DNA of 64,000 nt from Cliona cf. orientalis (taxonomy: Eukaryota > Porifera > Demospongiae > Clionaida > Clionaidae): NCBI GenBank assembly GCA_963930775.1, contig OZ005707.1, positions 3,534,001 to 3,598,000 on the forward strand, in the 5' to 3' direction. Position 1 is the first letter of the stretch. Each line of letters begins with the position of its first letter. This document shows positions 10,001 to 15,325 of the stretch, piece by piece. Position numbers and translations under genes: made by a program. The notes under the pieces are model-generated. The model was not told where the DNA came from. It saw nothing but the letters and a program-made list of their open reading frames with translations, and searched no databases.

Positions 10001-13000
10001 GCTAGCTCGCACAGGAGAGCCTGGCACTTAGCTATGGCTATTAAAGCTATAGGCGCTAGCTTGGCTATGCTCGAGACCTAGTGTGAGCGCTAGCTAGGTA
10101 GCAATACGGCCGTACGGGTAGCCGGGTATACGCTAGCGGCAGCGGCAGCGCCGCTGACTACAGTCACATGACTTCACCATGGCAACGTACCGTAAACACA
10201 GAAATATTGGCGTGCAGAAAATTTGGCAATTCTGTCTGAAACCCGGTAGGATTAAATATTGGCGAATTTTTAATTTGGCATTTGGGGCATTGGTCAATAT
10301 CAATGATGTAATACAAAGTCCTACGCACCTGCGCGCGCACGGCAGCCGAGGGTGTGTCACTGTGCATGTGACACGATCGATGCCGCGCTGCAGCTGCCAC
10401 TAGTCTACCTCGAGAAGAAAAGAAGGAAGAGTACCACGTTTCAAGCATCGTCAGAGGGTTTCACGTATACCAACGATCGTTGTCTCCTTCACTGGAAGAA
10501 CAACTTCAGTGTCTAAGGGAGGATGGCAACGACAAAGATCGATACGCTGTCACGGTGCTAAGGCACGGAAGCGTTGTTGGCCACATTCCAAGAAGAATTT
10601 CGGCTGCCTGTTCGTTGTTCATCGAAAGGAATGGAAGAATCCACTGTAGGATTATGGGAACAAGACAGTATTCTGCGGATCTACCTCGAGGAGGTCTGGA
10701 GATACCTTGTGTACTAAGGTGACAAGAAGGAGGTGATGAAGATTAGAAAGCTGATCAGCAAGAAAGTTGAAGCTATCGATCGCAAGCCGGATATTCAGCC
10801 ACTTTCCAAGAAAAGAAAAATAGATCTCCACATCACAGAAACATATGGTCAAAGTGAAACTCACGGCTCCACACCTTGGCTGACCTTGAACAATATCAAC
10901 TTATCTTCTGCCGATAAGGATATTCTCACTGCTGGAGATGAGCTTATAGATATGCATATAGATTTTGCTCAAGCAATCTTGAAGAAACAATTTCCAGAAT
11001 TGTCGGGACTACACTCAACCCTCCTTATCCCAAGGTACAGCATCACTAGTTCCCCTGCACTTAGCCTCGTACCCAGGCCCTTCAAGAGGAGGAGAAAGGG
11101 CCTGGTACACATCGCATGCGCATGCGCCGGGGGACCCCAGAAAAATGTGGGGTAATCGGATACTATTGTATACTCTCCGTTTATCGTCCATAGAACTCTA
11201 TGTCATACAGAACCCGCGAACGATCACTATGGTAACGCGATCGGTCGCTATGGAGACCCCCACGCATGCGCGTGCAATGTGTACCAGGCCCTTTCTCCTC
11301 CTCCTCTTGAAAGGCCTGGGAACGAGGCTACCCTGCACTGCAAATATTACACTGCCGAGGGAACCACTGGTGTGTCGTGACATCAATCGGATGCTGTGCT
11401 GGGCAAGTGAAGGTGTATGACTCGCTGTATAGATCGATTGACCAGGTGACATTGAACCTCATTTCAAGCCTGTTTGGATCCAATACACAAGTCAAACTTG
11501 AGCAGGGACCAAAGCAATTCGGTGTAAGATTGTGGTGTTTTTGCAATTGCCACAGCAACGCTTTTAGCCAATGGTGGTAACCCAACTACTGCTACATTCA
11601 ACCAGCAGGCCATGAGATCACATTTGATCAAGACATTCGAGAACTCACATTTACAAACCTTTCCAGAAAACTGACACTTACATAGTACATACATTTAAAG
11701 ATATCTAATATTGACCAATGATGCATTTTTACTGTTTAAAACATTGTTTTTATAAGTTTTAATAATCTTCATGGTATACAAGTAATAATAATATTAATTT
11801 TATGACCTTGTTGCAATGTAGGATGATCATACAGTTTGTCCTGATGTGAAATGGTTATGGTACAAATTATAGTTACTCTTCAGTGACTTCTGTGACAGCG
11901 TCATAGATTCCTGCCTTCTTGAAGCCATTGATAGCCAGTGTAGGGCGGGATGATAGAGACTGCTAGGCAGAGACAAACCATCCCAAGCTCTTGGACTTGA
12001 TTACAGCAGCTGATGTGTCAACTCGTACCTCATGAATGGAAACAGTTCTCAGCTGTTTGCTTACTTCCTCGGCATACCACATCTGGAATCTTCTCTGTAA
12101 CTCGTCCTTCATGGGTTTGTTGATAGAGATATCAAGAGGTTGAAGTTTGTCAGTACAGTTAGCTGGAACAGGAACCTGGATGATGTTGTGCTTCTTCAGT
12201 ACCTCAGCGAACTCGGAAGTTGTCTGCCCACGAAAACAGTCGAAAATAGCAAGAGCAGGGTGCGTTTTTTCAAGGTGTAAGGTAGCTCGTTTGGCATCAA
12301 TAAATGGCGCTATAACCATTTCGACATACTGCAACATTGTCTCCTCATTTGACCAGTGATTGTGTGAGTGCCAGATATCCCAACCTTCTGGAACTTCACC
12401 GGAAGGGTGACAGCGCTTTGTCTTACCCTGGTATATCAGCTGAGGGGGTAAGTACTCTCCGGACATGGTAACCGCAAGAATAGCAGTGATCTGGCGTTTG
12501 TCATCACTGTTGGTGATAGGTACGACTTTTCACCGCTTCTGTGCATGGTTCACTGACCTGTCGGTACCAAGTGAAGGGCGGTTTGATCCCAATTCAATAC
12601 GAGTTCAGTGGGGATCTCGTTCATGACTACCTCTGCTTGTATGTCTGCAAGAAAATCTCCTTGGAGCTCAAGAAATCGAGGAACAGCGACCTTTCCAGCG
12701 TTTGAGCATTTCCTTTTGACGTACCCCATTCGTGTAAGGAGAGATCTAGCCAAAGTTTTCGTAATCTGAATATGGCCCCCATGCTGAGCAAGCAGACCTT
12801 GATCACGAGAAGCTACGATCCCTTCAGCAGCTGCCATGCAGATGTTAGTGTTCACTACACTTCCAACTGCTCTCATGGCTGTCACGTAATCTTGTACTGC
12901 AGTATCAATCACCTTTCCGAGCATAAGTGGCCTTCCCTGGGGTTTAGTTGGTAGGCTCGTCACACTTGGAACGTCATTCTCCTCAGCTCTCGCTCTTAAT

Positions 13001-15325: not shown

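Follow-up and report, generated by a model that had tools for sequence, protein, structure and literature searches.

We sought to establish whether a locus in the sponge Cliona cf. orientalis is a pogo-type DNA transposon that carries, besides its transposase, a second gene encoding a HIRAN domain followed by a C48 peptidase, and what such a gene could do for the element. Pogo elements have been reviewed as transposons of 1.2-5.2 kb with one or two open reading frames (ORFs) encoding transposases (PMC7386202, section 8), and the word 'peptidase' is absent from the main text of that review (PMC7386202). The locus lies in a stretch of 64,000 nucleotides, hereafter the window, of which an earlier description had been made from the letters alone (the sequence-only reading). 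The genome searched comprises 216.8 Mb and includes the window; five regions with a HIRAN match facing a DDE_1 match were examined first. The genome searches scored 150 of 210, 150 of 186, 119 of 638 (query: the protein of the relative L067), 87 of 253 (query: transposase) and 150 of 490 candidates. Since only part of the candidates was scored, the locus counts given below are lower bounds.

Results

A dead two-gene element in the window

Positions 10190-13941 of the window are a DNA transposon of the pogo superfamily, with two genes facing each other between inverted ends. Its features are the following.

10188..10189, no strand, TA target-site duplication, left (from the sequence)
10190..10212, plus strand, left terminal inverted repeat, 23 bp (end comparison; similar ends in the internally deleted relatives L010 and L011)
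10429..10725, plus strand, HIRAN domain of the accessory gene (family profile E 2.9e-42; Pfam PF08797 E=2.4e-6)
10877..11041, plus strand, C48 peptidase, piece 1, profile positions 4-60 (family profile E 2.1e-16)
11062..11330, no strand, nested foldback element that splits the peptidase (perfect 9-bp duplication CCCTGCACT at 11053-11061 and 11331-11339)
11335..11568, plus strand, C48 peptidase, piece 2, profile positions 67-147, His and Asp region (family profile E 3.5e-22)
11501..11668, plus strand, C48 peptidase, piece 3, in another frame, profile positions 123-177, Asp-Cys-Gly motif (family profile E 2.6e-15)
11879..12535, minus strand, C-terminal part of the transposase, DDE_1 (Pfam DDE_1 E 1.3e-11; family profile E 1.9e-110)
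12523..13338, minus strand, N-terminal part of the transposase (family profile E 9.1e-91)
13384..13797, no strand, nested inverted-end element (perfect 9-bp duplication GTACGTACC at 13375-13383 and 13798-13806)
13855..13914, no strand, sub-terminal AATTTGGCG-type repeats, mirrored at 10255-10292
13919..13941, minus strand, right terminal inverted repeat, 23 bp (end comparison)
13942..13943, no strand, TA target-site duplication, right (from the sequence)

With the TA counted in, the ends are identical at 24/25 positions, and 200 plain shuffles of window positions 9700-14500 contained no equally good pair; the sequence-only reading had been right to place both genes between terminal inverted repeats and a TA duplication. 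The pogo-type transposase that it saw on the minus strand was recovered both by Pfam DDE_1 and by the two family-profile pieces, and the gene facing it is indeed HIRAN followed by C48. The two Pfam profiles that had been suggested as a check gave different outcomes in the window: PF08797 passed its cut-off (27.7 bits against 24.7, frame 10372-10719), whereas PF02902 had no match in the window frames submitted, and the C48 domain was recognised only by a profile built from intact relatives, as three pieces in shifted frames. The copy is dead, as had also been read, because both genes are frame-broken and two nested elements, each with its 9-bp duplication, lie inside it.

Placement in the pogo superfamily

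The earlier label 'Tigger/pogo-like' was retained in its pogo part, and the element is filed here in the pogo superfamily but not as Tigger. The DDE_1 catalytic domain was matched in the window (E 1.3e-11) and in the relatives L067 (1.4e-13), L065 (9.5e-11) and L066 (4e-14). Catalytic residues D256, D372 and D408 of L067 (the Asp positions were found in 4/4 aligned rows, two of them near-identical) leave 35 residues between the last two, which is within the pogo range, since most families of the superfamily have DD29-36D spacing (PMC7386202, section 8). A TA duplication and short inverted ends were found in the window element, L067-L071 and L073. The label 'Tigger' is not exact as regards two traits usual in Tigger, the sequence of the ends and the DNA-binding domains. 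Tigger ends start with CAGT; such ends are absent here, and those of the window element, L066-L071 and L073 start with CCGTA instead. Pfam gave no CENP-B_N match in L067, L065, L066, L070 or L073 and no HTH_Tnp_Tc5 match in L065, L070 or L073, the N-terminus of L073 lying outside the stretch searched; HTH_Tnp_Tc5 reached E 0.0016 in L067 (18.8 bits, below the 22.2 cut-off) and E 0.089 in L066. Tigger transposases are described as having CENP-B_N with HTH_Tnp_Tc5, or HTH_Tnp_Tc5 alone (PMC7386202, section 8).

Intact relatives elsewhere in the genome

On contig C4, the element L067 is bounded by ends of 27 bp (CCGTATAGCCGG...), each next to a TA, and has both genes intact, with a HIRAN-C48 frame of 339 codons from ATG and a transposase frame of 493 codons. 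In a near-identical copy on C8 (L068) the reading frame is broken once, within HIRAN, and a copy on C18 shows 100% identity to L067 over 339 residues, with the same ends and a broken transposase; the flanks of these near-identical copies on C4, C8 and C18 differ. Further lineages (L069, L070, L071 and L066) have ends and TA on both sides, those of L066 being read from the sequence, and the transposases of L069 and L071 contain frame breaks or a stop. Both genes are present in L065 and L072, for which both ends could not be placed. Identity to L067 is 43-50% for HIRAN-C48 (L065, L066, L069), and for the transposase 42% (L065) and 62% (L066).

A paralogous empty site was found for L071: its flanks, joined with one TA, align across the junction to a repeat in L004, with 166/187 positions identical and a 2-base gap two bases beyond the junction. 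When the flanks of L066 were joined and searched against the genome in the same way, only that element's own two flanks matched. The ORFs to the left and right of L066 (2-885 and 4383-5000) share a strand, and a SWIM zinc finger is present in the right-hand one; L066 looks inserted into a larger gene, which may belong to a MULE-type element. No relatives were confirmed in viral or bacterial-archaeal contigs (19 and 34 pattern matches).

By comparison of these copies, both genes are shown to lie between one pair of ends, as the sequence-only reading had supposed, and to insert together. The intact copies at other sites, the near-identical copies with different flanks and the empty site of L071 lead us to conclude, with very little doubt, that the complete element is a two-gene unit made up of a transposase and a convergent HIRAN-C48 gene.

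How often the two genes occur together

We counted the arrangement from both sides. A match to the L067 protein covered HIRAN and C48 together at 16 loci, and at 14 of these, among the matches listed, the gene faces a transposase, a count that used 45 of 121 rows of that search (peptidase-only rows omitted) with 18 transposase places and is independent of which loci were chosen for reading. The two exceptions are L083, which is rearranged and lies between pieces of transposase, and L084, a decayed locus with no transposase found in the 4.7 kb read. The 15 loci with HIRAN and C48 that were read with the profile (the window, L059, L065-L072, two in L081, L082, L083 and L084) include 12 that face a transposase in intact order, two (L081b and L083) rearranged beside one and L084 with none; these read-locus counts lean toward the two-gene reading, L065-L072 having been picked for a HIRAN or C48 match facing DDE_1. 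L081-L084 were picked since no DDE_1 match was nearby.

From the transposase side, among the matches listed and with loci merged, a HIRAN match was faced by 26/53 transposases at 35% identity or more and by 3/12 below that value (49 of 121 rows of the L067-protein search used). When HIRAN alone served as query, a match lay within 3 kb at 40 of the 65 transposase loci among the matches listed (33 convergent, 5 divergent, 2 same strand; both same-strand places are L083, and one divergent place is L081b), and none within that distance at the other 25. Three of those 25 (L086, L087 and L088) had no HIRAN by profile in 1.4-1.5 kb each on the expected side, and L085 has a split HIRAN beside one transposase copy.

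The expectation that the two genes always travel together was thus borne out for 14 of the 16 listed HIRAN-C48 loci, but not for L073, where the peptidase is absent and HIRAN stands alone. A HIRAN-C48 gene at unrelated sites, which would speak against a joint element, was mostly not what was found, the exceptions being L084 with its missing transposase and, from the other side, the 25 of 65 transposases with no HIRAN match within 3 kb. A host-gene reading of HIRAN-C48 was rejected: at several sites transposon ends enclose the gene, and at 14 of the 16 listed loci it faces a transposase.

HIRAN and C48 domains of the relatives

PF08797 scored above its cut-off of 24.7 bits in L067 (27.0), L065 (26.7), L066 (26.1), L069 (32.6) and L073 (33.6), and below it in L070 (23.8). 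For PF02902 (cut-off 20.7 bits), L067 (24.1) and L069 (32.9) were above and L065 (16.6) and L066 (14.4) below, and L070 had no match. Residues H76, D94, Q129 and C135 of C48, which we take to be the catalytic His, Asp, Gln and Cys, are invariant in 8/8 aligned C48 domains. Against PDB, the whole-protein profile matched SENP1 (E 0.00085) and reached HLTF HIRAN chains at a non-significant E 0.6; a separate C48 profile gave Ulp1-type (E 8e-7) and SENP1 (E 2e-6) chains as best matches, and a separate HIRAN profile gave HLTF chains at E 0.005. In the HIRAN family, an invariant Asn aligns with HLTF N91 and a near-invariant Asp with D94 (numbering inferred from Y93). The positions of HLTF Y72 and Y93, residues described as stacking on DNA (PMC4666394), are not kept in transposon HIRAN. 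Across the diverged lineages compared, the alignments show open frames and key residues of both genes to have been kept.

Shared history and constraint

Pairwise distances are correlated between HIRAN and transposase (r=0.44, 73 of 10000 permutations as high, 9 lineages), between C48 and transposase (r=0.56, 0 of 10000, 8 lineages) and between HIRAN and C48 (r=0.62, 53 of 10000, 8 lineages). The transposase and HIRAN-C48 trees have in common the groups L065+L081b+L082 and L059+L072. The window element, L066, L067 and L081a are grouped 100/100 in the transposase tree and left unresolved by the HIRAN-C48 tree. In the transposase tree the L065 group joins L069, L072 and L073, and L070 stays outside (89/91), while the HIRAN-C48 tree unites L069, L070, L072 and L073 with the L065 group outside (84/97). 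Because the trees conflict on the L065 group, genes may have been exchanged between lineages; long joint travel of both genes with some exchange would fit this pattern.

When subfamilies are compared, HIRAN-C48 is saturated for synonymous change and dN is 0.44-0.71. The sole close pair, L070/L071, gave dN/dS of 0.35 for HIRAN-C48 (5 synonymous, 6 non-synonymous changes), 0.71 for its C48 part alone (2 synonymous, 5 non-synonymous) and 0.18 for the transposase (13 changes over 388 codons of L071). These values bear on the view that the gene is a captured passenger with no part in transposition, kept only because it chanced to be present in the source copies that spread. Transposons do capture host genes, and copies reduced to HIRAN within MITE-like units drift neutrally (dN/dS 0.97 against their consensus over 16 units, 22 synonymous and 71 non-synonymous changes). 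Yet open frames, domain residues and the facing layout have been kept although the lineages' transposases are 35-61% identical, protein change is restrained where synonymous change is saturated, and HIRAN recurs with distant pogo transposases, so that we regard a mere passenger as very improbable. As for the reduced copies themselves, the neutral dN/dS led us to reject them as functional genes.

HIRAN is more widespread than the peptidase

At least 43 of the 149 DDE_1 loci listed have a HIRAN match within 2.5 kb, of which 32 are convergent, 9 divergent and 2 on the same strand. Uniform random placement, run 1000 times, averaged 0.77 and never exceeded 5; it ignored clustering of transposons in repeat-rich regions, so that 0.77 may be low. 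For the observed count, three rows that were second pieces of a gene were dropped from one search, and 21 rows not yet listed were added from another; one of the nine divergent places is a second DDE_1 match beside L059, whose own transposase faces HIRAN. Chance adjacency of HIRAN and DDE_1 was rejected on this comparison.

HIRAN is the commoner partner of the transposase and the peptidase is optional, so the link reaches further than the sequence-only reading had supposed. The element L073 (2.4 kb, matching ends) has transposase and HIRAN with no peptidase, and elements of this kind show that some lineages do without the peptidase. Both trees nest L073 within the HIRAN-C48 elements, though modestly supported, and this position suggests that it lost its peptidase. 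HIRAN was also found with transposases that are Tigger-type by their CENP-B_N, HTH_Tnp_Tc5 and DDE_1 domains. In L021 (1345-3148) it stands back-to-back with the transposase (Pfam 36.8 bits; ends of L021 not seen). In L004 (35-2878) a broken HIRAN lies on the same strand inside 26-bp ends starting CAGTG; the family profile matched it in two pieces (E 4e-12 and 1e-12) in which Pfam HIRAN had no match, and it is also outside both HIRAN lists.

HIRAN occurs away from transposases as well. No DDE_1 match lay within 3 kb of 79 of the 97 Pfam HIRAN matches listed (52 of 121 rows of the L067-protein search used); many of these are MITEs and others are other genes. MITE-like units with a HIRAN frame alone and CCGTATAG-type ends made up 17 of 32 loci compared (L017, L019, L020, L022, L023, L026-L028, L030, L031, L033, L036-L039, L041 and L042). 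Sixteen of them (all except L036) are 630-847 bp long, with a mean identity of 94.8% and ends of the window element's family. At L016:1117-2006 (C17), inverted ends of 59 bp, each edged by TTAA, enclose a different kind of HIRAN frame that the family profile did not match. Two copies of one layout, L034 (C1) and L035 (C6), have a different HIRAN-like gene facing two common ORFs, perhaps another mobile element.

C48-like domains were likewise seen in other settings. L077:1395-4461 (C14) has a pogo-type transposase (HTH_psq, DDE_1) and, downstream on the same strand, a gene with C48-like and PHD-like domains, both below the Pfam cut-off; by coordinates, the pairs at C2:8097370 and C10:1743196 resemble it. 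An ORF of 1146 aa at L078:588-4025 (C1) ends in C48-like and PHD domains and has no transposase domain by Pfam. About 70 further peptidase-only matches were listed in the L067-protein search, mostly on contig C1 and several in ORFs of L078-like length; few of them were read.

The occurrence of HIRAN with different pogo transposases and in several layouts is what would be expected if HIRAN tied the transposase to replication forks or gaps, favouring movement in S phase and a gain in copies. HIRAN did prefer fork-like DNA in one study (PMC4666394). We think such a tether unlikely. A broader proposal, which we hold to be doubtful, is that HIRAN is a general accessory gene of the pogo superfamily, Tigger-type elements included, in three layouts (facing, back-to-back and same strand). 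There it would mimic the HIRAN of HLTF/Rad5 as a transposon-encoded decoy, protecting cut 3' ends against host translocases, and would in some lineages be armed with a SUMO-protease-like domain. Such a transposon would itself control the complex formed after cleavage, along with the marks that this complex bears.

Discussion

Among the possible functions of the HIRAN-C48 gene we favour a role at the cut ends over the rival explanations. HLTF HIRAN binds 3'-OH ends, and a free HLTF HIRAN fragment inhibited the removal of Cas9 from cut DNA by HLTF, an inhibition that was much weaker for the N90A-N91A fragment (PMC11237066). By analogy, the HIRAN of the element may bind the free 3'-OH ends left by transposase cutting and so act on the post-cleavage complex, for example by keeping a host translocase of the HLTF/Rad5 type from stripping the transposase off the ends. 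In the HIRAN-C48 lineages the peptidase would then take SUMO-like or ubiquitin-like marks off the transposase or off repair proteins at these ends. The window copy is a dead relative of such two-gene elements. We offer this end-handling role, with HIRAN on cut 3' ends and a peptidase that removes marks there, as tentative; the joint role that the sequence-only reading put forward, in protecting excised DNA or removing such marks, is plausible. The reading as a whole, in which a two-gene pogo unit has HIRAN at its cut ends and a peptidase clearing marks at them, we give an even chance of being right.

The main rival to this role is anti-silencing, in which HIRAN-C48 would strip SUMO-type marks from the host silencing machinery so that the element stays expressed, comparable to the Ulp1-bearing VANC (KIU) genes of plant Vandal elements. 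Mutator-like elements repeatedly show a C48 domain on an extra gene, related elements reportedly become hypomethylated through KIU Vandals (PMC13317346), and the C48-like and PHD-like domains of L077, beside another pogo transposase, and of the large ORF in L078 fit a role on chromatin. The HIRAN part fits such a function less well: in the portions of the two studies drawn on here, HLTF HIRAN binds DNA ends or forks and not sequence motifs (PMC11237066, PMC4666394), and the HIRAN-only element L073 has no peptidase at all. We consider anti-silencing somewhat unlikely.

A conserved further gene that joins a DNA-end-binding domain to a SUMO-protease-like one would mean that some pogo elements bring their own tools for cut ends or for host modification, and competition between host and transposase at the post-cleavage complex would become a matter to study. 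The existence of intact, near-identical copies makes this directly testable. In the open PMC literature, with Repbase outside the scope, we found no description of a transposon-borne HIRAN and no report of a pogo or Tigger element with Ulp1 or HIRAN, in part as judged from titles and the opening lines of abstracts. Nor did that literature show, by title, a relevant SUMO protease encoded by a transposon, or any account of Ulp1 in a sponge DDE transposon.

The element shares with pogo, within the IS630-Tc1-mariner group, the TA duplication, short inverted ends, DDE_1 with DD35D spacing and a length of about 3 kb (PMC7386202), a superfamily whose transposases have been domesticated repeatedly in vertebrates, according to the title of the same review (PMC7386202). 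It differs from pogo as reviewed there, with transposase ORFs, in the further HIRAN and C48 gene that faces the transposase (PMC7386202). The KIU/VANC genes of Vandal, a non-TIR MULE, are alike in being an extra transposon gene with an Ulp1-type domain (PMC13317346). Their carriers, however, belong to another transposon class that lacks inverted ends, and the part of that account used here reports hypomethylation and mentions no HIRAN (PMC13317346); the present gene falls outside KIU/VANC, its carrier being pogo-type with inverted ends, and with HIRAN instead. With HLTF it has the same HIRAN domain in common, including the N91 and D94 positions, whereas no SNF2 or RING part was seen, the positions of Y72 and Y93 are not kept, and HIRAN is either fused to a peptidase or free-standing. 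The C48 domain resembles the SUMO proteases SENP1 and Ulp1 in its profile match and in the His, Asp, Gln and Cys that are kept, and differs from them in that the catalytic domain sits behind HIRAN and is encoded by a transposon.
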